The notes beneath the pieces are model-generated. The model saw only the letters and a program-made list of their open reading frames with translations. It was not told the DNA's origin and searched no databases. From the NCBI GenBank assembly GCA_036005065.1, contig DASYQW010000331.1, positions 1 to 38,450 of the forward strand: a DNA stretch of 38,450 bases, in the 5' to 3' direction. Positions within the stretch are counted from its first letter, which is position 1, and every line of letters starts with the position of its first letter. Positions 41 to 24,843 of the stretch are shown here, piece by piece. Origin of the DNA: Candidatus Methylomirabilota bacterium. Its GTDB lineage: Bacteria > Methylomirabilota > Methylomirabilia > Rokubacteriales > DASRDR01. Both the position numbers and the translations under genes were made by a program.

Positions 41-147
41 GGGCCAAGCCCCGAGCAGCCCTAGGACGCAGGGAGGAGGCGGGCCGAGGCGTATGCCGCA
101 TACGTTGAGGCCCGCCGGCGACCGAGGACGACGGGATGCGACGGGGA
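41..147. repeat. Interspersed intergenic repeat, copy 1 (hairpin at 79-115)
   Basis: This is the first of three related intergenic sequences (others at 20729-20833 and 24686-24843). The core is a hairpin with a 7-bp GCGGGCC/GGCCCGC outer stem, a conserved GA/GA internal mismatch, two G-T pairs, and CGTATGC/GCATACG around one central base. It lies 47 nt past the stop codon of the minus-strand gene ending at 163. Flanking blocks (CCTAGGACGCAGGGAGG on the left, CCGAGGACGACGGGATGCGA on the right) are also shared. Nothing else was recognised in 1-162. Its function is unknown; it could be a structured RNA element or a REP-like repeat. Confidence 0.7.
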
Positions 148-162
148 TCGGCCCGGGCCGAC

Positions 163-1434
163 TCATGCCGCGCGCCCCAGCACCAGCGCCGCGTGCCCCC
201 CACCGCGAGCCAGGGCGTGGAGCAGGACCGCGCGCGCGCCCGGCAGCGGGACGACCGGGCCGCGCGCGAACGCAAACCCCTCGCGCGCCGGCACCGCCAG
301 ATCCGGCAGGCCCGGCAGCTCGCCGCCGGCGACCGTCGCGACCGCCGCCGCGGCCACCCGGAGGCCGCCCATCCCGGCGTGCTCGCCGGCCAGCGGGGTC
401 AGCGAGGTCAGCAGCGGGCGCCGGCCGACGGCCCCGTCGAAGACGCCGGCCATGAGGTCGAGCTCGCAGGCGTCTTGGGCCGGATCGCCGGTGCCGGTGA
501 GGTATGCGGCATCCACCGCGTCCGGCCCGATGCCCGCGGCCGCGAGCGCCCGACGGACGACCGCCGGATCGCGCCGGCGCCGCGGGGGGAGCGCGTGCGG
601 CGCCGCCGGCAGGTTCCCGGATGCGATCCCGGCCAGCGTGGCGTAGACCCGCGCGCCGCGGGCGCGAGCGGCGTCGGCCGCCTCCAGCAGGAGGACGGTG
701 GCTCCCTCCCCGACGACGGTGCCGTTGGCGCGACGGTCGAACGGCCAGCAGCCCTCCGGCCCCGACCCGCGCGGTGAGATGGCCCCGAGGCGCCCGAGCT
801 CCCGGTAGAGGATCGGGCACAGGTCGTCGACGCCGCCCGCCAGCACCGCCGGGGCGCGCCCCGCCGCAATGAAGCCGGCCGCGCGCACGACCGCCAGCTC
901 CCCCGCGATGCCGGCCTGGTTCACGGTCAGCATGGGCCCCTGCGCGGCCACCGCGATCGCCGCGTGGGCGGCCATCGCGTTCATGACGGTGTTCGGAAAC
1001 GCCATCGGGGAGAGGCCCAGGGGACCGCGCGTGAGGTAGCCGAGAGCGAAGGCTTCGGAGGAACGGAAGTCCCCGTAGGCCGAGCCGAGCACGAGGCCGA
1101 GTCCCGGCAGAGTCCCGACGTCGATTCCGGCATCGGCCAGGGCGAGCCGACAGGCGACGACCGCGAGCTGGCTCGCGCGGGACAGCCGGCGCACCTCGTC
1201 AGCCGTGAGGTGGGGAGTGAGGTCCCCGACCTCGCCGCCGAGGCGGTGCGGCCCATGGCCGGTCGAGAAGGCCTGCACCGGCCGGATCGCCGGGACGCCG
1301 CGGACCAGGGCGGCCGCCAGGCTCGCCCCGCCGCCGATCCCGAGGGCGCTCACGCTCCCCACCCCGGTGATCACGACCGCGCCCGCGGCGTCCCATCGTC
1401 CGCGCGCGGCCACGTTCCCCATCGAGTCCCTCAC
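163..1434 (-). CDS. Chain-length-factor-like ketosynthase homologue (Cys replaced by Gln)
   Basis: A 423-residue thiolase-fold protein of the beta-ketoacyl synthase family. The active-site Cys position reads TVNQAG, with Gln at residue 173. This is the QAG hallmark of type II polyketide chain-length factors. The HGTGT motif has become LTGTGD, and the second His region (SLTPLAGEHAG) is also altered, so condensation activity is not expected. In KS-CLF heterodimers such a partner shapes the tunnel and sets product length. The start is GTG at 1434, 6 nt after the preceding ketosynthase's stop; an in-frame ATG at 1422 is an alternative. It is the last gene of the cassette in this window and probably partners the protein at 1441-2652. 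The exact product is unknown. Confidence 0.85.
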   Translation of the reverse strand: MRDSMGNVAARGRWDAAGAVVITGVGSVSALGIGGGASLAAALVRGVPAIRPVQAFSTGHGPHRLGGEVGDLTPHLTADEVRRLSRASQLAVVACRLALADAGIDVGTLPGLGLVLGSAYGDFRSSEAFALGYLTRGPLGLSPMAFPNTVMNAMAAHAAIAVAAQGPMLTVNQAGIAGELAVVRAAGFIAAGRAPAVLAGGVDDLCPILYRELGRLGAISPRGSGPEGCWPFDRRANGTVVGEGATVLLLEAADAARARGARVYATLAGIASGNLPAAPHALPPRRRRDPAVVRRALAAAGIGPDAVDAAYLTGTGDPAQDACELDLMAGVFDGAVGRRPLLTSLTPLAGEHAGMGGLRVAAAAVATVAGGELPGLPDLAVPAREGFAFARGPVVPLPGARAVLLHALARGGGHAALVLGRAA

Positions 1435-1440
1435 GGGCTC

Positions 1441-2652
1441 TCAGTCCTCGGCCCGCCGGCCGTCGGGAACCCGGCCGAACAGCAGCGCGGCGTTCTGGCC
1501 GCCGAACCCGAACGAGTTCGACATCGCCCACTCGAGGCGGGCCGGCCGCGCCCGGATCGGCACGCAATCGAAGGGCACCTCCGGGTCGGGCTCGGTCAGG
1601 TTCGCCGTGGGCGGCACCAGCTCGTGGACGAGCGTCAGGACGGTGGCGATCGCCTCGAGGGCTCCGGCGGCGGCCATCGTGTGCCCGATCAGCGACTTGT
1701 TGGCGCTCACCAGCACCGTGTCGGGGCCGAAGACCTTCCGGAGCGCCAGTGCTTCGGCCCGGTCGTTCTGCACGGTCCCCGTGCCATGCGCGTTCACGTA
1801 GCCCACGGCGCTGGCAGCCACGCCACCGCGCTCCAGGGCCTCGACCATGGCGCGCGCGCTCCCCTCGGCGTCGGGGTGGGGCGCGGTCGTGTGATAGGCG
1901 TCGGTCGTGAGCCCCCAGCCCCCCAACGCGGCATATGGCCGCGCGCCGCGCGCCCGAGCATGGTCGGCCTGCTCCAGCACGACGAAGCCGGCCCCCTCAC
2001 CGATCGACATGCCGCGCCGGTTCGCCGAGAAAGGCCGGCACGGCTCCGGATCGAGGAGCTTCAGGGCGTTGAACCCCATGAAGCAGATCCGGGTCAGGCC
2101 ATCGACCCCGCCGGCCAGGGCCAGCGGGACGTCCCCGGCGGCGACGAGATCGGCGGCCAACCCGATGGCGGCTGCCCCGGAGCTACAGGCGAGCACGACG
2201 GTCTCCTTCGGACCGGTGGTGTTGTAGCGCCGGGCCAGCGTCTCCGCGTGCGAGGTCGGCAGGATACTCGGAAGGGCACGCCGCAGCCGAGGATCGTCCA
2301 CGCCCTCCCGGCGGATCCGCCAGTACCAGGCCTCGGCCTCGAGCATTCCGCCTCCGATTCCCCCGACGATGACCCCGGCCGAGCGGAGAGCGGGGGGCGT
2401 GAGGCCGGCGTCCAGGACCGCCTCGTCGGCGGCGGCGAGCGCCAGACGGTCCGCCCGCGTGCGACGGGCCGATGTGCTCGGCACGGCGGCCGCCGGCACC
2501 TCGGCGGCGATCCGCGCCCGGAACCCGTCGGTCGGGAAGAGTGTGAGCGGACCGATGGCGCAACGGCCCTCGGCCAGCCCGGCCCAATAGATGGCACGCC
2601 CGCGACCGTACGGGCTCACCACGCCGACTCCGGTGACGACGACCCGGCTCAC
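1441..2652 (-). CDS. Beta-ketoacyl-[ACP] synthase (FabF/KS-alpha type), catalytically complete
   Basis: A 403-residue ketosynthase, full length for the KAS II family. It has the nucleophile in VLACSSGAA (Cys156), the first His in NAHGTGT (His289), and Lys319 and His324 in NKSLIGHTMAAAG. It would condense an acyl chain with a malonyl-ACP-type extender in the cytoplasm. The start is GTG at 2652, overlapping the stop of the acyl carrier protein gene (GTGA), so the two are probably translationally coupled. The next gene downstream is a Cys-less homologue with the CLF-type Gln, which makes a KS-CLF heterodimer the most economical reading. A stand-alone housekeeping FabF is less likely given three homologues in tandem. 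Confidence 0.9.
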   Translation of the reverse strand: MSRVVVTGVGVVSPYGRGRAIYWAGLAEGRCAIGPLTLFPTDGFRARIAAEVPAAAVPSTSARRTRADRLALAAADEAVLDAGLTPPALRSAGVIVGGIGGGMLEAEAWYWRIRREGVDDPRLRRALPSILPTSHAETLARRYNTTGPKETVVLACSSGAAAIGLAADLVAAGDVPLALAGGVDGLTRICFMGFNALKLLDPEPCRPFSANRRGMSIGEGAGFVVLEQADHARARGARPYAALGGWGLTTDAYHTTAPHPDAEGSARAMVEALERGGVAASAVGYVNAHGTGTVQNDRAEALALRKVFGPDTVLVSANKSLIGHTMAAAGALEAIATVLTLVHELVPPTANLTEPDPEVPFDCVPIRARPARLEWAMSNSFGFGGQNAALLFGRVPDGRRAED

Positions 2653-2951
2653 GACTCGGGTGCAGGCCGATCGGCCGTCGCCACGAAGCGTGCGAGCGCT
2701 CCGAGCGTCGCGAAGTGCACCTCGACCGGATCGCCTTCCTGCACGACGACCCCGAAGCGCTCTTCGAGCGCGATCGACAGCTCGATGAAGTCGAGCGAGT
2801 CGAGGCCGAGGGATCCCTCGATCCCCTTCGGCAAGGGGGTCTCGGGGGTGATCGCCGCGACGCTCTTCGGATCGAACCGGAGCCGCTTGACGATGATGTC
2901 GCGTAACTCGCCGACGATTGCCTGTTCGTCCATCTGCTCCCTCGCGTTCAT
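2649..2951 (-). CDS. Acyl carrier protein
   Basis: A 100-residue acidic acyl carrier protein. The phosphopantetheine attachment site is Ser52 in GLDSLDFIEL, followed by the usual helix-rich C-terminal half. The ATG at 2951 overlaps the stop of the preceding gene as ATGA, which favours this start; a second in-frame ATG lies at 2933. The gene sits between the two ketosynthase pairs and overlaps the following ketosynthase by 4 nt. It is therefore the likely shared carrier for the cassette rather than the primary fatty-acid ACP. A longer reading upstream would run through the preceding gene in another frame and is not supported. Confidence 0.9.
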   Translation of the reverse strand: MNAREQMDEQAIVGELRDIIVKRLRFDPKSVAAITPETPLPKGIEGSLGLDSLDFIELSIALEERFGVVVQEGDPVEVHFATLGALARFVATADRPAPES

Positions 2952-3913
2952 GGCGAGAGTCGCCAGAGCAACGCGCCGTAGTCGTTCCGCCACGCCGCCG
3001 TGAGGAGGCACGGGCCGCCGAGGGCGCGCGCCCGCGCCAGCGCCAGGCCGATCAGCGGCCCGCACGCCAGCGCCTCGCCGGGGGCCCGCACCAACGTCGG
3101 CGGCGTCGTCCCGCAACGCCGCGCGAGCGCGGCCTGCTCGGCCCGGGCCGGGCCGCCCGCCCCGGCGCAACCCGCCAGGACCCGCGGGTTCTCACCCTCC
3201 AGGACCCTGTCGAGTACCCCGGCCACGGCGGGGCCCAGGCGAGCCCGCGGCGCCACCGTGGACGCCCAGCGGAGCGGCCCGTCCTGGCCGGGCTCGAGGA
3301 GGAGGCACACCGCGCCCTCGATGATCGGCCGACTGTAGAGCCGGCGGGCGCGGTGCATGAGGTCCCAGACCTCGTGCACCGTTTCCACCGCCAGCACGAG
3401 CACGCGATCGACGACCCCCTCCCTCAGCCACCGGGCAGCATACCAGAGCGCCTGCAGCGCCGCCGGGCCGCCCCCCATCAAGTTCACGGAGGGCCCCTGG
3501 ATGCCGGCCCCGATCGTCACCTCGCCCGGAACCGCGCTGGGGGCCGTGTAGGGGAAGTGCAGCGTCGTGGAGCCTTCGTCTTCCAGGAACGCCCGGTTCG
3601 CCGCCGCGTAGGCGGTGGCGCTGGCGTACACCAGACCCGTCCGCGCGCCGGCCAGTGCCCCCGGGGCGAGCCCGGCCTCGGCCGCCGCTCCGTTCACCGC
3701 CGCGACCGCGAGGAGACATTCGCGCGTGGCGCGGCGGAAGCGCTCGCCGCTGAGCGCCGGGGTCGGCGCGGGGAGGAGCGCCGCCGGGGCCTCGGCCTCG
3801 CCAGCCGGCAGCGCACCCGGGCCCTCGCCCCAGCCGGTGAGGAGACCGACCCCGGCCACGCGCGGCGCGGGCAGGGTGGGCTCCGGAGCTCGCTCGCTCC
3901 TAGGCGGCGCCAT
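2948..3913 (-). CDS. Ketosynthase-fold protein lacking the catalytic triad
   Basis: A protein of about 321 residues that aligns weakly with beta-ketoacyl synthases but is shorter than the usual 400. The region expected to hold the nucleophile reads SVNLMGGGPAAL, without Cys. No HGTGT motif is visible, and the second His block is replaced by GEALACG. It is therefore not expected to condense substrates and may act as a structural or chain-length partner of the ketosynthase just upstream, whose 3' end it overlaps by 14 nt. The start is uncertain: ATG at 3913 follows a weak ribosome site, and an in-frame ATG at 3946 would lengthen the protein by 11 residues. Its stop overlaps the ACP start (ATGA). 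Confidence 0.75.
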   Translation of the reverse strand: MAPPRSERAPEPTLPAPRVAGVGLLTGWGEGPGALPAGEAEAPAALLPAPTPALSGERFRRATRECLLAVAAVNGAAAEAGLAPGALAGARTGLVYASATAYAAANRAFLEDEGSTTLHFPYTAPSAVPGEVTIGAGIQGPSVNLMGGGPAALQALWYAARWLREGVVDRVLVLAVETVHEVWDLMHRARRLYSRPIIEGAVCLLLEPGQDGPLRWASTVAPRARLGPAVAGVLDRVLEGENPRVLAGCAGAGGPARAEQAALARRCGTTPPTLVRAPGEALACGPLIGLALARARALGGPCLLTAAWRNDYGALLWRLSP

Positions 3914-5120
3914 GGCTCTGCAGGAGCAGCGCGGCATTGCAGCCACCGAAGCCGAGCGAGGTGGACAGGCTCAGGCGCGGGCGGTACTGGCGGGCCTCGT
4001 TCGGCACACAGTCGAGATCGCACGCCGGGTCCGGCAGGGCGAAGTTGAGCGTGGGCGGCACCTGCCCGTGCCGGCCGGCCAGCAGACACATGATGGCCTC
4101 GAGCGTGGCCGCTGCCCCCATCGTGTGGCCCAGGTGGGCCTTGATCGAGTTCACCGGGATCGTGCGCGCTCGATGGCCGAGCACGCGAATGAGCACATCG
4201 GCCTCCACGCGGTCGTTGGCCGGCGTCCCCGTCCCGTGAGCGCTCACGAAGTCGACGGCGCTCGGCTCGAGCCCGGCCTCGGCGAACGCCAGGCGGATCG
4301 CCAACTCGAGCCCCCGGCCCTCGGGGTCGGGCGCCGTGATGTGGACCCCGTCGGCCGTGCTCCCGTGTCCGAGCAGGAAGCCGAGCGGAGCCCGTCGGCC
4401 GCGCGCGGCCGCGTCGCCGGCCCGCTCGAGCACCACGATCCCCGCCCCTTCGCCGAGGAGGAGCCCGCTGCGGCGGCGATCGAACGGCCGGACCTCGTCA
4501 CGGGTCAGCGAGCGAAGGACGTTGAAGCCGCGCAGGACGAACCGGCAGAGGACGTCGACGCCCCCGGCCACCGCGACATCCGCCTGCCTCGCCCGCAACA
4601 GGTCCGCGGCCACGCCCAGGCTCGTGCCCCCCGAGGCGCACGCCGTGCACACCGTCAGCACCGGCCCCTGGACGCCGAGCCAGCGGGCGAGGTTCCAGCT
4701 CGGACCGTCGTAGAGTGACCCGACCAGGGTGCGGAGGCCGCCTTCGCCTCGAACGGCCCGGCCGGCGTCGTCGATCCCCCCCAGAGCCGTGCCGACGACC
4801 ACCGCCATGCGCGCGGGGTCCGGCTCGCCGGCCCCGAACCCGGCGCCGGCCAGCGCCTCCCGGGTCGCCTGGATCAGGAACCGCGAGGCGCGGCAGGCGG
4901 GAACGCGCCGCTCGTCGTCGCCGGCGCCCGCCGGGCGGGCCAGCTTCTTCACCTCCCCGCCCCGGGTGACCCGCTGATCGGCCACCGGGAACCGCTCGAT
5001 CTCGCCGATGCCGGAGGCGCCGGTCACGAGCCCCGTCCAGAACGCGTCGAGGTCCTGGCCGATGGGCGTGACGACCCCGGCACCGGTGACCGCGATCGGC
5101 TCGACCCCCCGCCGGCTCAC
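3900..5120 (-). CDS. Beta-ketoacyl-[ACP] synthase (FabF/KS-alpha type), catalytically complete
   Basis: A 406-residue ketosynthase and the first gene of the cassette. The nucleophile lies in TACASGGTS (Cys161), the first His in SAHGTGT (His295), and Lys327 and His332 in SIKAHLGHTMGAAA. The C-terminal glycine-rich loop (SLGFGGCNAAL) is intact. The GTG start at 5120 lacks a strong ribosome site. The downstream overlap with a triad-less homologue repeats the order active KS then inactive KS seen at 2652-163. The cassette therefore looks like two KS/partner modules sharing one ACP. No ketoreductase, dehydratase or thioesterase is seen in the window, so they would have to lie elsewhere or to the left. 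Confidence 0.9.
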   Translation of the reverse strand: MSRRGVEPIAVTGAGVVTPIGQDLDAFWTGLVTGASGIGEIERFPVADQRVTRGGEVKKLARPAGAGDDERRVPACRASRFLIQATREALAGAGFGAGEPDPARMAVVVGTALGGIDDAGRAVRGEGGLRTLVGSLYDGPSWNLARWLGVQGPVLTVCTACASGGTSLGVAADLLRARQADVAVAGGVDVLCRFVLRGFNVLRSLTRDEVRPFDRRRSGLLLGEGAGIVVLERAGDAAARGRRAPLGFLLGHGSTADGVHITAPDPEGRGLELAIRLAFAEAGLEPSAVDFVSAHGTGTPANDRVEADVLIRVLGHRARTIPVNSIKAHLGHTMGAAATLEAIMCLLAGRHGQVPPTLNFALPDPACDLDCVPNEARQYRPRLSLSTSLGFGGCNAALLLQSHGAA

Positions 5121-5164
5121 GTCGGGTCGCCCCGCATCAGCGAGTGACTCTCGACCGTCGCCTT

Positions 5165-6010
5165 CTACAGGAGGGGCGAGGTGTAGAGCCGGAACGCGCG
5201 TACGCGCCCGGGTGGGCTGTACGGCAAAGGCTCTACCCAGAAGCCGCGCGTGAGAGGGTCGAAGTGGAGACCGAGCGGGCTGGCAGGGTCATTCGGATCG
5301 TAGGCGAGGAATTCGAGGGCGCCCGACCGAAGCCGGTATTCATAGACGAGGACCGCATGGTTGAGGACGTCCGGGTCCGGGAAGTTGGTGATCATGACGG
5401 GCGCCGGCCGGCCGGCATCGAGCTCCGCCCGGAGCTGGCGGGCAACGCGCTCCTGATGGGCGGCAGCCAGCGGGAACCCGGCGCGCCAGGTCCGCCAGTG
5501 CACCATGCTCAGGATGTTGGAGCCGAACGACGCCTTGAGCGTCGCCTCGTGGGCGCGCGAAAACTCGAAGAGGCTCGGGTATCCCGGGATGACCACGCGC
5601 TCGGCGTCCGGTCGCGGCGCGGCCCACGCGGAGATGCGCATCACCTCGCCGATTCGGCGCGCGTACTCCGCCTCCGAGACCGGCGGCTCGGCCGGCGCGA
5701 AGCGCGCGAAGCGGAAGAACTGGCTCGCGGCGCGCGCCATGAGGATGCAGTAGTTGGCGAAGTCGACGTGCCGCTCCGGATGGTGCGACCGGACCAGGTT
5801 CGGGAACGCGAAGGTATCCCGTCCGACCTCGAAGGCCGGGCGATCGACCCGGTTCGCGGGGGTCGGCCCATCGAGCGCGCCCGTCGCGCAACCGGACAGG
5901 AGAAGGCCGGAGAGGATCGCCGGGACCAGCCAGGAGAAGAATCGCGGCCGGCCAGACCGGGGTCGATCGCCCCGTCCCCGACCGCGCTCCGCGGGGGTCA
6001 CACGCGCCAT
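5165..6010 (-). CDS. Papain-fold (YDPN-type) cysteine-hydrolase-like lipoprotein
   Basis: A 281-residue predicted lipoprotein. A basic N-terminus and hydrophobic stretch end in a lipobox LLLSGC (Cys41), so the mature protein should be anchored to a membrane outside the cytoplasm. The mature part has Cys88 in NYCILMARAA, His218 in LNHAVLVYEY and Asp238/Asn240 in YDPNDP. That order and spacing fit papain-like hydrolases and transglutaminase relatives. Catalysis is inferred from this pattern only. It ends 44 nt before the ketosynthase cassette on the same strand and may be co-transcribed with it. Its substrate is unknown. ATG at 6010 is chosen because the signal sequence follows it. Confidence 0.65.
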   Translation of the reverse strand: MARVTPAERGRGRGDRPRSGRPRFFSWLVPAILSGLLLSGCATGALDGPTPANRVDRPAFEVGRDTFAFPNLVRSHHPERHVDFANYCILMARAASQFFRFARFAPAEPPVSEAEYARRIGEVMRISAWAAPRPDAERVVIPGYPSLFEFSRAHEATLKASFGSNILSMVHWRTWRAGFPLAAAHQERVARQLRAELDAGRPAPVMITNFPDPDVLNHAVLVYEYRLRSGALEFLAYDPNDPASPLGLHFDPLTRGFWVEPLPYSPPGRVRAFRLYTSPLL

Positions 6011-6232
6011 CGGCCATCATTCTGAGTGTCGACCCGGGGCCTCGTCAAGGAGTTTGTCGGTTTGGCTCGCACGGGAGCGCTCACTGGTCCACGCGTCCCA
6101 CCTGAGCGTGCGGCCCGACCCCTGAGGCATTTTGCCGCAGCTCACGACCAGTTCGCCACATCCGGTCCGCGCCACCGGGTCCGCCCGCGGCGCAAGACGC
6201 CGGATTCGCGGGCCTTCACCCCGCACTCTCGG

Positions 6233-6248
6233 TGGCACCCTCCTTGCT
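6233..6248 (+). promoter_or_regulatory. Sigma-54 (-24/-12) promoter
   Basis: The sequence TGGCACCCTCCTTGCT matches the RpoN consensus TGGCACG-N4-TTGCW at all but one fixed position, with the required GG-N10-GC spacing. Transcription would start near 6258, leaving a leader of about 45 nt before the ATG at 6304 with its AGGAG ribosome site. An NtrC-family sigma-54 activator is encoded just downstream on the opposite strand (6826-8187). The rest of the 6011-6303 gap separates divergent genes; I found no clear activator-binding palindrome in it and no convincing promoter for the lipoprotein gene at 6010. Confidence 0.75.
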
Positions 6249-6303
6249 CCTTCGTCGGCGCGGTACCGCTCGCCGAAACCGCCAACCGAAAGGAGACTCG
6301 ACG

Positions 6304-6558
6304 ATGAGGACGATTCTGGGTGTCGCGCTCGCGCTGGTGCTGGCACTCTCGGTGACCGCGGTCTGGGCCGCCGAGATCGAGGGCAAGATCCAGTCGGTCG
6401 ACCCGAACGATCGCGTGGTCGTCCTCGAGGATGGTACCAAGCTCTGGCTCGCCGAAGGCCTCTCCATGGACACCCTGAAGCCGGGCGCCAAGGTGAAGGC
6501 CTCGTACGAGGAGCGGGACGGGAAGAACATCACCACCCAGTTCGAAGTCTCGGAGTAG
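6304..6558 (+). CDS. Small exported DUF1344-like protein
   Basis: An 84-residue protein with a signal peptide of about 22 residues (hydrophobic core ALALVLALSV, cleavage near VWA-AE). The mature domain is a short beta-rich unit containing EGKIQSVDPNDRVVVLEDGT, typical of the DUF1344 family of small periplasmic proteins with no assigned function. ATG 6304 is preceded by AGGAG at 6291-6295. In-frame codons upstream to 6232 cross the sigma-54 promoter and are not translated in this reading. It is the only convincing plus-strand gene here and converges on the two-component regulator. The promoter suggests control by that or another enhancer-binding protein. Confidence 0.8.
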   Translation: MRTILGVALALVLALSVTAVWAAEIEGKIQSVDPNDRVVVLEDGTKLWLAEGLSMDTLKPGAKVKASYEERDGKNITTQFEVSE

Positions 6559-6571
6559 CCTCAGCCACGGA

Positions 6572-6626
6572 GGGGCGCGCCCGGCCGTCGCGTTCTCAGT
6601 AACCGGACTCGCGGCCGGGCCGCCCC
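6572..6626 (+). terminator. Inverted repeat after the DUF1344 gene, possible terminator
   Basis: Starting 13 nt after the TAG at 6556-6558, GGGGCGCGCCCGGCCG pairs with CGGCCGGGCCGCCCC with one bulged base and a loop of about 24 nt. Only TTGCC follows, so there is no proper U-tract. Termination is plausible but not shown. Confidence 0.4.
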
Positions 6627-6759
6627 TTGCCAGCCTCAGGCCTGTCGTCGGGCGATTGAACCGGCGGCGGCCGGCCTCGAGTCGGCTCGGCGGCTAGGAG
6701 CCTGTCGGAGTAACCCGGCAGCTCGCCCCGAGCGCACGCCGCGTCGGGCAGCGGTCCGA

Positions 6760-6821
6760 GCGGCGGCTGTGCCGCCGCAACCGAGGGGGGGCATCGGGGG
6801 GGTCTTCCGAGACCCCCCCGA
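6760..6821. repeat. GC-rich multi-hairpin element 1
   Basis: Two adjacent hairpins: GCGGCGGC-TGT-GCCGCCGC (6760-6778), and a perfect 12-bp stem TCGGGGGGGTCT/AGACCCCCCCGA with loop TCCG (6794-6821). It starts 4 nt past the stop codon of the minus-strand regulator at 6826. The same layout recurs at 12907-12994, 18292-18369 and, inverted, 21799-21865. There is no U-tract on either strand. The rest of the 6559-6825 gap holds the inverted repeat at 6572-6626 and nothing else recognised. Confidence 0.6.
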
Positions 6822-6825
6822 GCGG

Positions 6826-8187: not shown

Positions 8188-8242
8188 GACGGTACCATGG
8201 GCGGTGTCGGCGCTTCCAGGCTCGGCGCTGGCACCGGGCAGG

Positions 8243-12994: not shown

Positions 12995-12999
12995 AGGAT

Positions 13000-15245: not shown

Positions 15246-15257
15246 GGCATCACGCCC

Positions 15258-16552: not shown

Positions 16553-16572
16553 GCCCCTCAGTTCACCGGGCT

Positions 16573-16586: not shown

Positions 16587-16607
16587 GGGACTCGCGGCCG
16601 CGGCGCC

Positions 16608-16679
16608 TCATGCCAGCGTCCTCATCTCCGCTTTCGCCTGCTCCAGCCAGAACCCCACGTCCATCTCGCGGTACGTCGA
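16608..16679 (-). pseudogene. Possible 3' remnant of a cyclase/TPR-type ATPase gene
   Basis: On the minus strand, before a TGA at 16608-16610, the sequence reads TYREMDVGFWLEQAKAEMRT then LA-stop. This resembles the C-terminal end of large class-3 adenylate cyclase/TPR ATPase proteins (YREMDMxFWLExAEA). An in-frame stop lies directly upstream of these 23 or so codons, so only the tail survives, abutting the toxin gene's stop at 16680. The match is from memory of the family, so this is tentative. Confidence 0.4.
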
Positions 16680-17111: not shown

Positions 17112-17335
17112 GGCTCGAGATCTCGGAAGAGCTCGGATTCATCCCCGAGTTTGTTGTCCGTGGACTCGAAAAGTCGCGTAGAAGGCGGGCGGCGACCGGT
17201 ATAGTAGCGCGACGCCACCACGCGCAGGCCCTTACGAATGAGGTCGGAGGCGGAGTGGCCAGCCGCCCGGGCTCTCTTCAGGGCCCGTACATCCTCTGCT
17301 TCAAGCCGAACCGTCGTCGAGATCAGCCGCGCCAT
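17108..17335 (-). CDS. Ribbon-helix-helix antitoxin
   Basis: A 75-residue protein. The N-terminal strand STTVRLEAEDV followed by two helices (RALKRARAAGHSASDLIRKGLRVV) is a ribbon-helix-helix DNA-binding domain. The C-terminal tail (RLFESTDNKLGDESELFRDL) is acidic and probably wraps the toxin. It would neutralise the PIN toxin and repress its own promoter. ATG 17335 is preferred since the domain starts there; an in-frame GTG at 17368 is possible. Two CATACA repeats 11 bp apart overlap the start codon and could be its operator. The pairing of a PIN toxin with an RHH antitoxin is well known. Confidence 0.8.
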   Translation of the reverse strand: MARLISTTVRLEAEDVRALKRARAAGHSASDLIRKGLRVVASRYYTGRRPPSTRLFESTDNKLGDESELFRDLEP

Positions 17336-17349
17336 ACATGCACCATACA
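17333..17349. promoter_or_regulatory. Possible antitoxin operator (CATACA direct repeat)
   Basis: CATACA occurs at 17333-17338 and 17344-17349, an 11-bp spacing that puts both on one helix face, as RHH dimers often require. A TATACT -10-like hexamer for the minus strand lies upstream at 17380-17385, but no good -35 was seen. The rest of 17336-17434 holds nothing else recognised. Confidence 0.3.
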
Positions 17350-17434
17350 CCAGGCGACGAAGCAACACAACCGGCTCGAAGTATACGGAACCGGATAGCC
17401 GGGATGACGCAGCACCTTCCGGCCAGCTAGTGAT

Positions 17435-18229
17435 TCAGCTCAGCCAGCGCTTGCGGCGTCGGTAGTGCTTCACGTCCCGGTACGACCGTCGCCCGCCGAC
17501 CTCGGTCAGGCCCAGATAGAACTCCTTGACGTCTTCGTTGGCCCGGAGGCTCTCGACCGGCCCGTCCAGCACGATCCGGCCGTTCTCCATGATGTAGCCA
17601 TAGGCCGCGACCTCGAGAGCGATGACGGCGTTCTGCTCGACCAGCAGGATGGTGACCTGCTCTTCCCGGTTGAGACGGCGGATGATCTCGAAGATCTCCT
17701 CCACCAGCAGCGGGGCGAGCCCCAGCGACGGCTCATCGAGCAGCATCAGGCGCGGACGCCCCATGAGCGCGCGGCCGATGGCCAGCATCTGCTGCTCGCC
17801 CCCGGAGAGGTAGCCCGCCTTGACTCGCCGGCGCTCGGCCAGCCGGGGGAAATACCCGTAGACGAGGTCGAGGCTCGACCGGACGCCACCCCGATCACGC
17901 CGGGTATGGGCCCCGGCGATCAGGTTCTCCTCGGTGGTCAGGTGCGGAAAGACGCGGCGGCCCTCCATCACCTGCGCAATGCCGAGCCGGACGACGTCGG
18001 ACGCGTTCCAGCGGTCGATCCGCCGGCCGTCGAACTCGATGGTGCCGGTATGGACCTCGCCCTCCTCGATGCGGAGGAGGCCCGAGATGGCCTTGAGCAG
18101 CGTGGACTTGCCGGCGCCGTTGGCGCCGAGGAGCGTGACGATGGTCCCGTCGGGGACTTCCAGGGAGACGCCCTTCAGCACCAGGATGATGTGCTGGTAG
18201 ATCACCTCGACGTTGCTAACTTTCAGCAT
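17435..18229 (-). CDS. livF: LIV-type ABC importer ATPase LivF (system 1)
   Basis: A 264-residue ABC ATPase. Walker A GANGAGKST (35-43), signature LSGGEQQ, Walker B LMLLDEP and the H-loop-region Gln of LLVEQN are intact. It powers uptake together with the LivG at 23839-24666. The protein is longer than a usual LivF (about 235-240). It ends in a basic tail, SYRDVKHYRRRKRWLS, shared letter for letter with the LivF of system 2. It is the last gene of system 1, 141 nt after the binding-protein gene across a multi-hairpin element. ATG 18229 is used. Confidence 0.93.
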   Translation of the reverse strand: MLKVSNVEVIYQHIILVLKGVSLEVPDGTIVTLLGANGAGKSTLLKAISGLLRIEEGEVHTGTIEFDGRRIDRWNASDVVRLGIAQVMEGRRVFPHLTTEENLIAGAHTRRDRGGVRSSLDLVYGYFPRLAERRRVKAGYLSGGEQQMLAIGRALMGRPRLMLLDEPSLGLAPLLVEEIFEIIRRLNREEQVTILLVEQNAVIALEVAAYGYIMENGRIVLDGPVESLRANEDVKEFYLGLTEVGGRRSYRDVKHYRRRKRWLS

Positions 18230-18291
18230 TCACGCGACCGTGGCCGGCACTCCCCATCCTCTCCCGCGGACAAGGGGGAGGCAGGCCCGAA

Positions 18292-18369
18292 CCGTTCGCT
18301 GAACGCGAACGGCGCGGCTTTGCCGCGAGGGCATTCTCCGGGGGGGGCTACCGCCCCCCCTCCGAGAAT
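18292..18369. repeat. GC-rich multi-hairpin element 3
   Basis: Three hairpins: CCGTTCGC/GCGAACGG (18292-18312), CGCGGC-TTT-GCCGCG (18313-18327), and a long imperfect stem with outer ATTCTC/GAGAAT and inner G7/C7 (18333-18369). It lies 1 nt past the stop of the binding-protein gene and before livF. Intercistronic hairpins behind binding-protein genes often stabilise the upstream mRNA, which would fit the excess of binding protein needed. Confidence 0.6.
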
Positions 18370-18370
18370 C

Positions 18371-19573
18371 CTAGAGGTGCGGCCCCTCGAACCAGTCCTT
18401 CACCAGCACGAACTTCCCGCCCTGTACCTTGTAGAGGCGCACCTTACGGGAGCCGGCGTGGTTGGTCGCCGTGATGGTCGTCGGAGCGATCGTCCCCTCG
18501 CCGGTGAAATCCTTGATCGACTCCATCCCCTTCTTGAAGTGCTCGCCGGTCACGGCGCTGCCCCCGGCCGCCTTGATGGCGTGCTTGGCGGCCTCGGTGA
18601 ACAGCGCCGCGTTCATGATACCGCGGACGTAGTAGATCGAGTTCATCTCCTTCGGAGGCTCCTTCCCGCCTTTCTTGTACATGTCCGCGATGTCTTTGGC
18701 GACGGGCAGCTTGGCGAGGTCCTCCGGCATGACGACGAAGTTCACGCCCATGTACCCCTCGGCGGCCGGCCCGTTCACGTTCACCTCGTCCTCGCTGAAG
18801 CCCCACACCAGGCTGATCATGGTGGCCTTCATCCCGAGCTTGGCCCGCTCCCCCACGGTCAGGGCCGGGCCCTTCCCGAACAGGTGCGAGATGACGAAGT
18901 CGGGGTTGAGACGCTGGATCTGGAGCATCTGAGAACTGGCTTCCGCGCACGGAGGCGGGCAGGCGACCTCGCCGACCAGCTCCATGTTGCCGAGCTTCTT
19001 CGGGAGCTCCCGGACGTAGTCGAGCGGGTCGCGGCCGGCCGGGTTGTCGTAGAAGAGGTAGGCGATCTTGGCCGCCCGGTTCTCCTTCCAGGCCTCCTTG
19101 ATGTACTGGTAGATGGCTGCCACCTGGGACTTGTAGGAGGCCACGCCGACGAACACGTACGGGAACTTGGTCGCGTCCTCGACGTCCGAGATGCCGAAGC
19201 CGGGGGTGAGGAGGCTGATCTTGTCCCGGTTCGCGAACGTCTTCAGGGCATCCGTGATCGGCGTCCCGTAGCTGACGACGGCCAGGTAACCCTCGGCCTT
19301 GAACTTGTTGTAGCCCTCGACCGCCTTGGGCACCGCGTACCCGTGCTCGACCTCGTTGTGCTCGATCTTGTAGCCCTCGATCCCGCCCCGCGAGTTGATC
19401 AGATCCATGTAGTCGTGGAAGCCGGGGCAGTACTTCACGCCGACCGTCTGGGTCGGCCCCAGCCGGTCACAGAAGTTGCCGATCTTGAGCACCTTGCCCT
19501 GGCTGACCCCCACCGACACCACCAGCGCGACCACCGCGACGACCACGCACGAGCCCACCAGTAAACGCTTCAT
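18371..19573 (-). CDS. LIV-type ABC importer substrate-binding protein (system 1)
   Basis: A 400-residue periplasmic binding protein of the LivJ/LivK type I fold. The signal peptide (about 1-25, hydrophobic VVVAVVALVVSVGV) lacks a lipobox. The two-lobed domain starts with VLKIGNF and ends with KVQGGKFVLVKDWFEG. Four Cys occur (FCD, YCPG, CPPPC), which may form extracytoplasmic disulfides. The ligand cannot be read from sequence; the acyl-CoA synthetase in the operon points to a carboxylic acid rather than an amino acid. ATG 19573 follows a strong GAGGAGG site. Downstream lies a multi-hairpin element. Confidence 0.92.
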   Translation of the reverse strand: MKRLLVGSCVVVAVVALVVSVGVSQGKVLKIGNFCDRLGPTQTVGVKYCPGFHDYMDLINSRGGIEGYKIEHNEVEHGYAVPKAVEGYNKFKAEGYLAVVSYGTPITDALKTFANRDKISLLTPGFGISDVEDATKFPYVFVGVASYKSQVAAIYQYIKEAWKENRAAKIAYLFYDNPAGRDPLDYVRELPKKLGNMELVGEVACPPPCAEASSQMLQIQRLNPDFVISHLFGKGPALTVGERAKLGMKATMISLVWGFSEDEVNVNGPAAEGYMGVNFVVMPEDLAKLPVAKDIADMYKKGGKEPPKEMNSIYYVRGIMNAALFTEAAKHAIKAAGGSAVTGEHFKKGMESIKDFTGEGTIAPTTITATNHAGSRKVRLYKVQGGKFVLVKDWFEGPHL

Positions 19574-19643
19574 CGCCTGTTCCTCCTCTCTGCGGACGGA
19601 GTGAGTCCGGCCACGCCGTCGTGGCCGGCTGCCTCGGTCTTCC

Positions 19644-20708
19644 TCAGTACGCGAACGGCCACAGCCGGAAATAGTCCTTGATCCGGCGCCAGATCCGGTA
19701 AAGCCCCTCCGGCTCCAGGATCAGGAATAACACGATCGCCAGGCCAAAGATGATCTCCCGGACGTAGGCGAAGTTGCCCAGGGTCCCCGGCATCCCCCAG
19801 CGCTTGAGCGCCTCCAGGGCGTCCCGGATGCCGGCCGGCATCAGGGTGATGAAGGCCGCTCCCAGGATCGAGCCGGGCACCGAGCCCAGCCCACCGATGA
19901 TGATCATGGCCAGGTAGTCGATCGACGTGTTGATGAGGAAGTGCTCGTAGCTCACGACCTGGGTGTAGTAGGCCCACATGGCTCCGGTCACCCCCGCGTA
20001 GAACGACGAGATGGCGAAGGCCAGGAGCTTGTAGCGGAAGATGTTCACGCCCATGGTCTCGGCGGCGATGTCCTGGTCCCGGATGGCCACGAAGGCCCGG
20101 CCGATATAGCTCCGGGCGAGGTTGCGGGCGGCCACCGTCGCCACCAGCGCGACCACGATGATCAGGTAGTACTTGCGCCGCTCGGTGTCCAGGACGAGCG
20201 AGCCGAGGGTGGCCGGCTCGATGACGAGCGCCCCCTGGGCTCCCTGCCCGGTGAGCCAGCCCGAGTGCAGGAGGTTCCACTCGATGATGAACTGGGCGGC
20301 CAGCGTGGCGATGGCGAGGTAGAGGCCCTTGACCCGGAGCGATGGGATCCCGAACAGGCAGCCTACCACCGCCGTGCTGAACCCCGCGGCGGGCAGCGCG
20401 AGCCAGAACGGCGCCTCGAGCCGCAGGGCGAAGAGCGCCGCGGTGTAGGCGCCGATTGCCATGAACCCGCCCTGGCCGAGCGAGATCTGGCCGGCGAACC
20501 CGACCAGGAGGTTGAGCCCGATGGCGCCGATGGAGGCGATGCCGACGAGGTTGAGGATGGAGAGGGCGTAGTCGCTGGCGGTGAGCGGCACCACGCCGAA
20601 GAGCACGACCAGGAGCGCGACGAGCCCGAAGCGGGCCAGGGGCAGCTGGTACACGGCCATGTCGGCCGCGTATGTCGTCCGGAAGACGCCGCACTCGCGC
20701 GCTAGCAC
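19644..20708 (-). CDS. livM: LIV-type ABC importer permease LivM (system 1)
   Basis: A 354-residue polytopic permease of the BPD_transp_2 family. It has the LivM motifs GLNLLVGFAGQISLGQGGFMAIGAY, GRAFVAIRDQDIAAETMG (EAA-like loop contacting the ATPases) and IIGGLGSVPGSILGAA. The N-terminal stretch RECGVFRTTYAADMAVY resembles REAGQFKTSYASDQAIF of the system 2 LivM, so it is real and supports the GTG start at 20708. It pairs with LivH. It is separated from the livH stop by 136 nt carrying repeat copy 2, and its stop precedes the binding-protein gene by 70 nt. Confidence 0.93.
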   Translation of the reverse strand: MLARECGVFRTTYAADMAVYQLPLARFGLVALLVVLFGVVPLTASDYALSILNLVGIASIGAIGLNLLVGFAGQISLGQGGFMAIGAYTAALFALRLEAPFWLALPAAGFSTAVVGCLFGIPSLRVKGLYLAIATLAAQFIIEWNLLHSGWLTGQGAQGALVIEPATLGSLVLDTERRKYYLIIVVALVATVAARNLARSYIGRAFVAIRDQDIAAETMGVNIFRYKLLAFAISSFYAGVTGAMWAYYTQVVSYEHFLINTSIDYLAMIIIGGLGSVPGSILGAAFITLMPAGIRDALEALKRWGMPGTLGNFAYVREIIFGLAIVLFLILEPEGLYRIWRRIKDYFRLWPFAY

Positions 20709-20728
20709 GGCGATTCAGTCCGATAGCC

Positions 20729-20833
20729 GGGCCGAGACCCGAGCCGCCCTGGGACGCAGGCCCGAGCCGGCCCGAGGCGTATGCAGCATACGTTGAGGGC
20801 CGGCGACGGCCGAGGACGACGGGATGCGACGGG
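20729..20833. repeat. Interspersed intergenic repeat, copy 2 (hairpin at 20766-20804)
   Basis: The hairpin has an outer stem GCCGGCCC/GGGCCGGC, then the GA/GA mismatch, two G-T pairs and CGTATGC/GCATACG around a central A. The outer stem differs from copies 1 and 3 on both sides in matching fashion. It lies 40 nt after the livH stop and before livM. The right block CCGAGGACGACGGGATGCGA is identical to copy 1. Confidence 0.7.
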
Positions 20834-20844
20834 TGTCGGCACGG

Positions 20845-21729
20845 CTACACGCGCTCGATGATCTCGCGGCCGAACAGGCCGTACGGCCGCACCATCAGCG
20901 CCACGATCAGTACCATGAAGGGCACGACGTCCTTGGCTCCGCCGCCTACCAGCGGGTCGATGTAGCCGGCCGCCAGGTTCTCCAGCACGCCCATGAGGAA
21001 GCCGCCCACCACCGCTCCCATGATGGAGTCGAGGCCCCCGAGGATCACCACCGGGAACACCTTGAGCCCGACGATCGCCAGGTACGGATCCACGCCGAGG
21101 ATGCGCCCCCAGATGACGCCGCCGAGGGCCGACACCATGCCCGCGATGGCCCAGGCCAGGGCGAGGATCGCGCGGAGGTCGATGCCCATGGCAGCCGCCG
21201 CCCGGGGGTCGTCCGACACGGCCCGCATGGCGATCCCGAAGCGGGTGCGCTGGAAGAAGTAGCCCAGCACGCCCATGCACAGGAGTGCGAGCGCGGCCGA
21301 CGCCAGGTTGATGGGCGCCAGCGGGACGCCCAGCACCCGAAACGGCGTCGACGGGACAATGGCCGGAAACCCTCGCACCTCCGCGCTCCACACCCACGGC
21401 GCCACGCCTCGCAGGATGGCGGCCAGGCCGATGGTCGCCATGATCACCGACACGACGGGGTAACCCGTCAGCGGCCGCAGGATCCCCCGCTCGACGACGA
21501 ACCCCAGCAGCGCCATCAGCCCCATCGTCACCAGGATGGCCAGCGGCAGCGGCAGCCGCACGCTCGAGAGCATCATCAGCGCGACATAACCGCCGATCAT
21601 CACCTGCTCGCCCTGCGCGAAGTTGATGACCTCGCTCGCCTTGTAGATCAGCACGAACCCCATGGCGATCAGGGTGTACAGGGCCCCGACCATGAGGCCG
21701 TTCAGGACGAGCTGGAGGAAGAACTCCAT
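20845..21729 (-). CDS. livH: LIV-type ABC importer permease LivH (system 1)
   Basis: A 294-residue polytopic permease, standard length for LivH. It has a N-terminal LQLVLNGLMVGALYTLIAMG helix, the loop GIAMRAVSDDPRAAAAMGID facing the ATPases, LGGLDSIMGAVVGGF, and the family ending RPYGLFGREIIERV. It forms the transmembrane channel with LivM. ATG 21729 directly follows a TGA at 21730-21732 that closes a duplicated copy of the synthetase 3' end. The original gene junction was therefore probably abutting before a roughly 205-bp insertion upstream. Confidence 0.93.
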   Translation of the reverse strand: MEFFLQLVLNGLMVGALYTLIAMGFVLIYKASEVINFAQGEQVMIGGYVALMMLSSVRLPLPLAILVTMGLMALLGFVVERGILRPLTGYPVVSVIMATIGLAAILRGVAPWVWSAEVRGFPAIVPSTPFRVLGVPLAPINLASAALALLCMGVLGYFFQRTRFGIAMRAVSDDPRAAAAMGIDLRAILALAWAIAGMVSALGGVIWGRILGVDPYLAIVGLKVFPVVILGGLDSIMGAVVGGFLMGVLENLAAGYIDPLVGGGAKDVVPFMVLIVALMVRPYGLFGREIIERV

Positions 21730-21735
21730 TCAGGA

Positions 21736-21796
21736 CACCGTCCGGATGGCGAGCTTGGTCTCGGTGACCGCCTTGCGCCCGTCCTGATAGGTGATC
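21736..21796 (-). pseudogene. Duplicated 3' end of the acyl-CoA synthetase gene
   Basis: This 61-bp stretch repeats 21941-22001 with two mismatches, 51 bp of it identical. On the minus strand it encodes TYQDGRKAVTETKLAIRTV then S and a stop, against the same residues then ETRSN in the present gene. Both mismatches are synonymous (ATC CGG versus ATT CGC). Its stop abuts the livH ATG, so this copy looks like the ancestral operon junction and the other like a newer 3' end. Confidence 0.75.
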
Positions 21797-21798
21797 AT

Positions 21799-21865
21799 CC
21801 TCGGCGGGGGGCTTTGCCCCCCTCCGAGGCCTCCCCCCCGAGGGTGGCGCGGGCGAAGCCCGCGC
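21799..21865. repeat. GC-rich multi-hairpin element 4 (inverted orientation)
   Basis: The stem CCTCGGCGGGGGGC-TTT-GCCCCCCTCCGAGG (21799-21829, one mismatch) is followed by GCGCGGGC-GAA-GCCCGCGC (21847-21865). The order is the reverse of element 2, so this copy is inverted. It lies inside the 144-bp segment between the two copies of the synthetase 3' end. The remainder, 21866-21922, shows nothing else recognised. Confidence 0.65.
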
Positions 21866-21922
21866 TCGGACTCCGGCCAACGGTGCGACCAATAACCCGA
21901 CGCGGTCTCGTTCGGCATCCCG

Positions 21923-23842
21923 CTAGTTGCTCCGCGTCTCCACCGTGCGAATGGCGAGCTTGGTCTCGGTGACCGCCTTGCGCCCGTCCTGATAGGTGAT
22001 CTCGGCCGTCACCGGCACCAGGGGCGCATCCTCGTACAGGGCGTCGATGATCCTGGCGTACTTCTGGCCGATCACGCGCCTCCGGACCTTCCGGGTTCGC
22101 GTCATCTCCTCGTCATCGGGGTCCAGCTCCTTGTGGAGGAGCACGTACTTGCGGATCCGGGTGGCCGCCGGCAAGTCCTGGTTGACGCGTTCCACCTCGC
22201 GGTAGACGAGGTCGTAGACCTCGGGCTTCTGGGCCAGGTCGGTGTAGGTCGTATAGGTGAGCTGCCGGCGCTCGGCCCATTTCCCGACGGTTTCCATGTC
22301 GATGTTGACCAGCGCGGCGACGTACGGGCGGTCGGGCCCGACCACCACGGCCTCCTTGACGTAGGGGCTGAACTTCAGCTTGTTCTCGAGGAACTGGGGC
22401 GCGAGAGTCGTGCCGTCGGCCAGGCGGGTGACGTCCTTCAGCCGGTCGACGACCACCAGGTGCCCGTCCTGATCGAAGAAGCCGGCGTCCCCCGAGTATA
22501 GCCAGTTGTCCCGGATGACCTCCCGGGTCGCCTCCGGGCTCTTGTAGTACCCGGCGAACATGGCCCCGCTGCGCGAGACGATCTCGCCGTCCTCGGTGAG
22601 CCGGATCTCCACCCCGGGGTACGGCAGGCCCACGGTCCCCAGCTTCACCCCGTCATCGGGCTGGCCGCAGCAAAAGGCACAGTTCTCGGTCTGCCCGTAG
22701 ATCTGCTTGAGGTTCACGCCCAGTCCCCGGTAGAAGAGGATGATCTCGTGGGCCAGCGGAGCGCCCCCGGTGAACGCGTAGCGGAGCCGCCGGGCTCCGC
22801 GCTGATCGCGCAGCGGCGCGAAGAGCAGGAGCTCGCCGACGACCCACCGGAGGCGCAACCAGGCCGAGAGGGGTCGGCCCTCCATCCGCCGGCGGGCGAC
22901 CTCCTCCCCGACCGGCATGAACCGATTGAAGACCCACCGCTTGAGGCGACTCGAATCGTCGATCTTCACCCGGATCTCGGAATAGCTGTTCTCCCAGATC
23001 CGCGGCGGGCCGATGAACAGGTGCGGCCCGATCTCCCGGAGGTTGACCAGGACGGTCTCCGGCCCCTCGGGAAAGTTGACCGTCAGCCCGCGCACCGTCC
23101 CCAGGGCGAGCGACCAGGCCGTCTCGCCCACCCAGGCGATCGGCAGATACGAGAGGAGCTCGTCCCCCTCCCGGACCTTCTCGCGGGCGAGGAACTGGTG
23201 GGCGGCGGCGATCATGGTCCGATGGGTCAGCATGGCGCCCTTGGGGAGACCGGTCGTCCCCGAGGTGTAGGCGATGAGCGCGACGTCATCCGGCCCGCCG
23301 GCGGCGATCAGCTCGTCGAAGAGGCCGGGGCGGGCCCCTTCGACCTCCCGGCCGCGCGCCTCGAGCTCGGTGAGCGGCATGAGCCAGCCGTGGTCGTAAT
23401 GCCGCAACCCCTTGGGGTCGTCGTAGAAGACACGCTCGGCCTTGGGAAGCCCGGCCCGGGCCTCGACCAGCTTGTCGACCTGCTCCTGGTCCTCGGCCAG
23501 CACGAAGCGGGCGTCCGAGTGGTCGACGACGTACTGAACTTCCCGGGCGATCGCGTCCTGGTAGATGGGAACGGGCACCGCCCCCACCGCCTGCGCCGCG
23601 AAGATCATCCAGTAGGCCTCGGGGCGGTTGTCGCTGATGATGGCGACCTTGTCGTCCCTCCGGAGCCCCAGGGCGTGAAGCCCCAGCGCGAGGGCCCGCA
23701 CGTGTCCGAGCACCTCGCCGCGCGTGTACTCGAGCCAGATGCCCTTCTCCCGCTCCCGCATGGCAGGCCGCCCCGGCTCGCTCCGGGCCCCGTCCACGAA
23801 TATCCGGATCAGCGTGGCCTCGGACGACCCGGGCTCGCTCAT
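21923..23842 (-). CDS. Long-chain-type acyl-CoA synthetase (LIV system 1)
   Basis: A 639-residue AMP-forming synthetase of the COG1022 (FadD15/FACL) type. The ATP loop is AYTSGTTGLPKG (191-202). The adenylate-binding region reads IYGQTENC, YSGDAGFFDQDG is the hinge-side motif, and TRTRKVRRRV is the C-terminal Lys region. It would convert an imported acid to acyl-CoA in the cytoplasm. ATG 23842 overlaps the livG stop (ATGA), so it is an integral operon member. A beta-like tail of about 40 residues follows the catalytic core. Its last codons are duplicated at 21736-21796, and the present end (ETRSN) may be a replacement. Chain length and substrate are unknown. Confidence 0.92.
   Translation of the reverse strand: MSEPGSSEATLIRIFVDGARSEPGRPAMREREKGIWLEYTRGEVLGHVRALALGLHALGLRRDDKVAIISDNRPEAYWMIFAAQAVGAVPVPIYQDAIAREVQYVVDHSDARFVLAEDQEQVDKLVEARAGLPKAERVFYDDPKGLRHYDHGWLMPLTELEARGREVEGARPGLFDELIAAGGPDDVALIAYTSGTTGLPKGAMLTHRTMIAAAHQFLAREKVREGDELLSYLPIAWVGETAWSLALGTVRGLTVNFPEGPETVLVNLREIGPHLFIGPPRIWENSYSEIRVKIDDSSRLKRWVFNRFMPVGEEVARRRMEGRPLSAWLRLRWVVGELLLFAPLRDQRGARRLRYAFTGGAPLAHEIILFYRGLGVNLKQIYGQTENCAFCCGQPDDGVKLGTVGLPYPGVEIRLTEDGEIVSRSGAMFAGYYKSPEATREVIRDNWLYSGDAGFFDQDGHLVVVDRLKDVTRLADGTTLAPQFLENKLKFSPYVKEAVVVGPDRPYVAALVNIDMETVGKWAERRQLTYTTYTDLAQKPEVYDLVYREVERVNQDLPAATRIRKYVLLHKELDPDDEEMTRTRKVRRRVIGQKYARIIDALYEDAPLVPVTAEITYQDGRKAVTETKLAIRTVETRSN
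21941..22001 (-). repeat. Direct repeat, partner of 21736-21796
   Basis: This is the copy that forms the present 3' end of the synthetase coding sequence. It lies 205 bp to the right of the other copy. Identity stops exactly at 22001/21796, where the left copy runs into the hairpin element. Confidence 0.75.
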
Positions 23843-24666
23843 CCGGCGGCTCCGGCGGGGACGCCCTTCGCGCCCAGGTAGGCCTTGATGACGCGCGGGT
23901 CCCCTCGGACTTCGGCCGGGCTGCCCTCGGCGATCTTCTGCCCGAGGTCGAGCACGATGACCCGCTCGGAGATGTCCATCACCACGCCCATGTCGTGCTC
24001 GATGAGCACGATGGCGATGCTCCACTCGTCGCGGACGTCGATGACGAACCGCGCCATGTCCTCCTTCTCCTCGACGTTCATCCCGCTCATGGGCTCGTCG
24101 AGCAGCAACAGCTTGGGCTGGAGCGCGAGGGCCCGTCCCAGCTCGACCCGCTTCTGGAGGCCGAGCGGCAGGGTACCCACGATCGCCTTCCGGATCGCCT
24201 CGATCTCCAGGAAGTCGATGACGTCCTCCACGGCCGCCCGATGGCGCACCTCCTCGCGGCGGCCGGGGCCCCAGTACAGCGCCGCCGCCAGCGGGTTCGA
24301 GCGGATGTGGACGTGTCGGCCCAGCATGAGGTTGTCGAGGACCGTCATCCCGCGGAAGAGGGCGATGTTCTGAAAGGTGCGGGCCATCCCGCGGCGAGCG
24401 ATCTCGGAGGCGGACAGCCCCGTGATGTCGCGGCTGTCGAAGACGATCCGCCCGGCGCTGGGCGGGAAGATGCCGCTCACGGCGTTGATCAGCGTGGTCT
24501 TGCCGGCCCCGTTGGGGCCGATCACGGAGACGATCTCGCATGGGCCGACCGTGAAGTCGACCGCGCTGACGGCCTGCACGCCGCCGAAGTGCTTCGCCAC
24601 CCCGCGGACCTCGAGCAGCGCGGCCCCTCCGCTCCCGCGCGACAGTGCCCCGCTCACCGGCAGCAC
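23839..24666 (-). CDS. livG: LIV-type ABC importer ATPase LivG (system 1)
   Basis: A 275-residue ABC ATPase. It has Walker A GPNGAGKTT, the LivG-type signature LPLGLQKRVELGRAL in place of LSGGQ, Walker B LLLLDEP with SGMNVEEKEDM after it, and switch His in LIEHDM. It pairs with LivF to drive the LivHM channel. The GTG start at 24666 gives about 17 residues before the fold, so a later start is possible. It is the first gene of system 1, with repeat copy 3 just upstream, and overlaps the synthetase gene by 4 nt. Confidence 0.92.
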   Translation of the reverse strand: MLPVSGALSRGSGGAALLEVRGVAKHFGGVQAVSAVDFTVGPCEIVSVIGPNGAGKTTLINAVSGIFPPSAGRIVFDSRDITGLSASEIARRGMARTFQNIALFRGMTVLDNLMLGRHVHIRSNPLAAALYWGPGRREEVRHRAAVEDVIDFLEIEAIRKAIVGTLPLGLQKRVELGRALALQPKLLLLDEPMSGMNVEEKEDMARFVIDVRDEWSIAIVLIEHDMGVVMDISERVIVLDLGQKIAEGSPAEVRGDPRVIKAYLGAKGVPAGAAG

Positions 24667-24685
24667 GGCGCTAGCTCACTGCGCC

Positions 24686-24843
24686 GGGCCGAGACCCGAG
24701 CAGCCCTGCCAGGGGTCGGCGCGCGTGGGGCCAAGTGACGAGCATGGCTAGGACGCAGGGAGGAGGCGGCCCGAGGCGTATGCCGCATCCGTTGAGGGCC
24801 GCCGACGACCGAGGACGACGCCAGGCGAAGTCAATTGGCCCCA
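24686..24843. repeat. Interspersed intergenic repeat, copy 3 (hairpin at 24765-24803)
   Basis: The hairpin has outer stem GGCGGCCC/GGGCCGCC, the GA/GA mismatch, two G-T pairs, and CGTATGC/GCATCCG with one mismatch. It lies 42 nt after the livF stop at 24846. Relative to copy 1 it holds about 43 extra bases between CAGCCCT and AGGACGCAGGGAGG. The TGGGGCCAAGTGA (24726-24738) and TCAATTGGCCCCA (24831-24843) form an inverted pair bounding this part. Confidence 0.68.

Follow-up and report, generated by a model that had tools for sequence, protein, structure and literature searches.

The window, i.e. the whole 38,450-nt stretch of DNA analysed here (Candidatus Methylomirabilota bacterium, GCA_036005065.1, contig DASYQW010000331.1), contains three similar hairpins, each behind a minus-strand stop codon, which raises the question of what has been repeated at these places and whether its folded form matters as RNA or as DNA. 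Alignment with more copies revealed that each hairpin is the central ~37 nt of a palindromic element of ~120 bp, continued on the far side from the stop codon by a tail of usually 20-40 nt. The features of the three copies are:

38-157, minus strand: copy 1, complete palindromic element of 120 bp (117.3 bits with the covariance model)
79-115: central hairpin of copy 1
1-37: tail of copy 1, reaching the contig end
163-165, minus strand: stop codon TGA of the ketoacyl-synthase-like gene (163-1434), directly preceding copy 1 on the gene strand
20726-20845, minus strand: copy 2, whole element (covariance model match, 116.5 bits)
20845-21729 and 19644-20708: two branched-chain amino-acid transporter permease genes (both PF02653) forming the host junction of copy 2
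20845-20847, minus strand: stop codon TAG of the permease gene upstream of copy 2
24725-24844, minus strand: copy 3, whole element (covariance model match, 116.4 bits), between two ABC ATPase genes of a branched-chain amino-acid transporter (both PF00005)
24846-24848, minus strand: stop codon TAG of the ATPase gene upstream of copy 3
24844-24853: direct repeat CGCTAGCTCA on the stop-codon side of copy 3, including the stop codon (score 10)
24669-24678: direct repeat CGCTAGCTCA on the far side of copy 3
24683-24708, minus strand: one-arm remnant of a further copy beside copy 3 (26 bases, 96% identity to the element end)

The sequence-only reading had placed the hairpins (79-115, 20766-20804 and 24765-24803) and their stems correctly except for one base: the 3' side of the inner stem of copy 3, read as GCATACG, is GCATCCG. 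It also proposed a constant position, and the stop-to-hairpin distances are indeed 47, 40 and 42 nt, but the true constant is the ~0-8 nt between the stop codon and the end of the element, because the element inserts or survives at stop codons. In copy 2, the first base of the element is the last base of the upstream permease stop codon. The outer stem of copy 3 is strongly diverged with pairing retained, and the arm remnant next to this copy reads as a nested or tandem insertion.

Copy number, range and pairing

Using a single copy as DNA query, we found 40 places in the draft genome of the window at E <= 1e-15, many more than chance would give. A covariance model built from 31 copies gave 62 matches at E <= 0.01 in the same genome, including a few reverse-strand matches of the same near-palindromic copies, and the total for this 120-position model is ~60; the element is therefore multicopy, and it is non-coding and under ~200 bp. 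At the order level, the model matches 50 of 60 genomes, with up to ~55 matches per genome; at the phylum level it matches 62 of 95, many genomes being without the element. All genomes compared are drafts. A collection of named genomes gave nothing when scanned with the core word of the genome of the window; with the core word of its relatives, 32 stretches were found, all from Candidatus Rokubacteria/Rokuibacteriota. Viral contigs, phages and plasmids provided no convincing relative (one 35-nt plasmid match is near chance level). Rfam has no match at the gathering score in the window and none at E <= 1 in six loci, and none of the papers listed in our literature searches describes a repeat of this kind from Rokubacteria or Methylomirabilota. 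Thus the search of this genome and its relatives, which the sequence-only reading had proposed, recovered many more copies, placed non-randomly and with paired outer stems; neither a lack of further copies, nor random placement, nor unpaired outer stems was observed.

Among the 31 copies, 97.4% of the cells are occupied by standard pairs and 18 pairs changed on both sides. The covariation score of 0.343 was reached in none of 500 shuffles, which gave 0.089, and sliding the columns by 1-3 positions gives at most 0.053. The end stem, a terminal inverted repeat, is paired in 97.1% of cells. Close to the ends, a 4-bp stem and the stem adjacent to it are highly variable in sequence with complementarity kept, one-sided changes being almost absent; beyond the hairpin stems that had been described as different and still paired, the outer stems of the 120-bp element covary as well.

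This pairing does not look like that of an RNA. Read on the gene strand, 105 copies have 17 G-U (0.5%) and 44 A-C among 3672 cells, after exclusion of one pair in which a T-G wobble is conserved. For comparison, the acceptor and T stems of 50 tRNAs belonging to this order have 25 G-U (4.2%) and no A-C among 600 cells. Since the counts for the element come from related copies, shared ancestry is a caveat. Although folding energy is more stable for the plus strand of the window, the G-U counts give no clear support for RNA on either strand. The near absence of G-U points to pairing at the DNA level: we infer that the Watson-Crick complementarity of DNA, as a hairpin, a cruciform or coupled arms, is maintained rather than a wobble-tolerant mRNA fold. 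Selection on either a folded RNA or a folded DNA form had been suggested, and it is the DNA option that is favored. Strong covariation can thus mark DNA pairing instead of a new RNA.

Insertion behind stop codons

Of 102 copies, 80 start at most 9 nt from the stop codon of a sense ORF (-9 to +1), a placement seen for 3.2% of random positions; 9 copies have the mirror-image antisense arrangement. Selection against other insertions could account for part of this bias. Copies are also present inside essential operons, at the rplL/rpoB, rpsS/rplV and acpP/fabF junctions, and the host genes are ordinary operon genes unrelated to each other. The element has early stop codons of its own (TAA/TGA at about +13), in copies of the relatives its AG turns a preceding T into TAG, and the best-conserved tails have a GAAGG stretch resembling a ribosome-binding site ahead of the next start codon. 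One copy of the genome of the window (L015, C50:25211-25330) lies within the beginning of a permease gene, together with a duplication of 38 nt, and its tail seems to provide a ribosome-binding site and a start codon anew (GGTAAGGAATGCAAATAGCG).

We sought the flanks of thirteen insertions of the G033 genome, from a genus of the same order other than that of the window, in two congeners and aligned ten sites. At all ten the element is absent from at least one congener: four sites are empty in both (L053, L110, L116 and L119), three are empty in the one congener aligned (L107, L034 and L125), two are occupied in just one of the two congeners (L113 and L122), and one is empty in one congener and has unrelated sequence in the other (L120). 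At the L107 site, a truncated copy (L186) is present in the second congener, so this insertion is partly shared.

Direct repeats of 10-38 nt flank many copies, with the upstream stop codon inside the repeat and often the downstream start codon too (TGATG or ATGA junctions). A direct-repeat score of at least 13 was obtained for 17 of the 48 copies of the genome of the window, while the maximum among 318 controls is 12. Where the duplicated stretch ends in T (L035, L055 and L126), the original target was T^GA, and T plus the AG of the element now forms TAG. Empty sites could in principle result from loss, but the direct repeats argue for insertion. The element is mobile. The proposal of a new structured element agrees with the absence of Rfam matches; it missed that the element is interspersed and mobile, as its target duplications and empty sites indicate.

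Matching gene junctions are occupied across genera or families in three cases: L031 (copy 2 of the window) and L115 (G033), L035 (G039) and L123 (G033), and L003 (genome of the window) and L130 (G037). These are either old shared insertions or the same target used repeatedly. Two copies of the genome of the window, L065 (C143) and L021 (C179), have an identical downstream gene start and different upstream genes near a contig end, a result of rearrangement at the repeat, strain variation or assembly error.

About 15 truncated copies retain the end adjoining the upstream stop codon and one (L276) retains only the opposite end, a polarity of limited weight, as the copies are few and the two half patterns used to find them differ in sensitivity. 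The truncated copy L201 has 70 nt and a 13-nt duplication, and L272 has an internal deletion together with duplications. Some truncations are later deletions, because the site orthologous to L186 holds a full-length copy (L107). The beginning of a second copy follows the duplicated stop in L016, L022, L025, L029 and L135, and at G015:C98 (L060, 1417-1854) three related, diverged units are arranged head-to-tail with a period of 145 and 97% matches.

Composite copies were also observed. L194, L198, L105 and L200, from the genome of the window, are chimeric: a different G+C-rich hairpin repeat (GGCGCGCCTCGGACGGCGGGGCCCCAGCCCCGCGACGTCCTGCGGCGCGC) stands in place of their second half and probably represents a second repeat family in this genome. 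The truncated copy is followed in L274, L275, L200, L268 and L189 by a hairpin-rich stretch (GCTCCGAGCGGCGGCTTCGCCGCCGC or GCGCGGGCTTTGCCCGCGC) and then a long perfect stem such as GGGGGGTCTTACGAG; the stretch looks like another dispersed repeat or a terminator. Among the relatives, small hairpins (CACCCACCTTCGGTGGGTACCCG), sometimes more than one, are inserted in the second half of L166, L176, L055, L190, L191 and L193. The central hairpin is replaced by a longer one in L184, L185 and L187.

How the element may move

We consider it probable that this is a non-autonomous mobile palindromic DNA element, MITE- or REP-like, of Rokubacteria and their phylum. An enzyme acting in trans would recognize the folded DNA, hairpin or cruciform, and such recognition would keep the arms Watson-Crick complementary. 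Insertion at a stop codon would be tolerated since the stop codon upstream, and in many cases the start codon downstream, is regenerated by the duplication, and the stop codons and GAAGG stretch of the element itself would keep the neighboring genes expressed. Copies would then be intercistronic hairpins in operon mRNAs and may have a secondary effect on expression.

Several points stand against this reading: besides the possible selection behind the stop-codon bias and the shared ancestry of the counted copies, the moving enzyme was not found in our searches, a variable duplication length is unusual for DNA transposases, and one-sided truncation is explained more simply by a target-primed route. 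Reverse transcriptases (PF00078) are present in 21 of 59 genomes and Y1 transposases (PF01797) in 11 of 59, neither being correlated with copy number. PF00078 was not found in the copy-rich drafts G033, G037 and G002, nor PF01797 in the genome of the window (G000) or G033, and half-element searches for an autonomous partner returned truncated or variant copies only. The only reverse transcriptase close to a copy, at ~0.4 kb in G026 (L204), was considered as partner and rejected, being group II intron-like by sequence; its proximity looks fortuitous.

The target-primed route is that of a SINE-like retroelement, in which an RNA of the window plus strand, antisense to the neighboring genes, would be reverse transcribed in trans at the target, giving variable target duplications, one precise end and truncation at the other. 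Eukaryotic SINEs have variable target duplications and one-sided truncation and rely on a trans-acting machine. The first two features may be shared by our element, with its duplications of 10-38 nt, its ~15 truncated copies that keep the would-be RNA 3' end against one that keeps the other, and the 13-nt duplication of the truncated L201, and the third would be shared if an enzyme acts in trans; the more stable fold of the plus strand also fits. It differs from SINEs in being G-U poor whichever strand is read and in its bacterial host. Furthermore, the copy-rich drafts gave no reverse transcriptase, the single one of the genome of the window is group II intron-like by sequence, and L186, as a later deletion, means that not every truncation is primary. 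We hold this origin to be unlikely. The same grade applies to the speculative idea of a stop-codon-specific bacterial short interspersed element, possibly spreading by a target-primed RNA intermediate, whose own stops and ribosome-binding site would make operon insertions harmless.

A cis-acting mRNA element between operon genes, controlling mRNA processing or translation and for which mobile spread would no longer be relevant, is likewise unlikely. The strict place behind stop codons, the sense orientation and the strong covariation would suit it. There are also precedents, as REPs of Escherichia coli up to 15 nt from the stop codon were reported to lower translation (PMC12306157) and ERIC acts orientation-dependently in mRNAs (PMC2229807), and by analogy a secondary effect of the element on translation is plausible. 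However, G-U pairs are nearly absent, the sites are mostly unshared between congeners, the host genes are unrelated and many genomes have no copies.

We regard as very unlikely a REP/REPIN-type element moved as single-stranded DNA by a RAYT (Y1 tyrosine transposase). The element is palindromic, extragenic, multicopy and downstream of genes, with DNA-like pairing, but the Y1 transposase has no match in the genome of the window or G033, target duplications are present whereas larger ones are reportedly not made by IS200/IS605 elements (PMC2817692), and inspection by eye of the 31-copy alignment and flanks gave no consistent GTAG tag at the hairpin foot. An ordinary intrinsic transcription terminator, suggested by stable hairpins right behind genes, can be dismissed, since the copies have no T tract or terminator-like match, are found within operons (e.g. 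rplL/rpoB and rpsS/rplV) and share homology over 120 bp.

Relation to known repeats

Integron attC sites are imperfect palindromes that immediately follow stop codons in sense orientation and conserve their structure more than their sequence. The element resembles them in size, palindromic form, sense orientation and place, but has no RYYYAAC/GTTRRRY core sites (by eye), is found in ordinary operons instead of cassette arrays and is flanked by target duplications.

ERIC, Correia/NEMIS, RUP and YPAL are bacterial MITEs or small mobile sequences, and ERIC, Correia and RUP are mostly A+T-rich with 5'-TA ends (PMC2229807). As in bacterial MITEs, the element is ~100-200 bp, multicopy, non-autonomous and mostly intergenic, with a long stem-loop and target duplication; judging from its operon position, it would also be transcribed with its neighbors. 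Unlike them, it is G+C-rich, has no 5'-TA ends, generates duplications of variable instead of short and fixed length, and is anchored at stop codons.

REPs have 20-40 bp and GTAG or CGTC tags, the CGTC-tagged ones having no known transposase (PMC3733652), as is the case for our element. REPs/REPINs are, like it, extragenic palindromes mainly downstream of genes in which structure is kept while sequence varies (PMC3733652, PMC2817692). It differs from them by its 120 bp, its target duplications, the absence of a consistent GTAG tag and the several carrier genomes without a Y1 transposase.

Among described bacterial MITEs and REPs, this phylum-wide family of mobile palindromes is unusual in two features, the anchoring at stop codons and the variable-length target duplications, by which the stop and start codons of neighboring genes in an operon are rebuilt. 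It offers a test case for a mobile class still without a known moving enzyme. If the proposed mechanism is true, a selfish element colonizes essential operons without breaking them.
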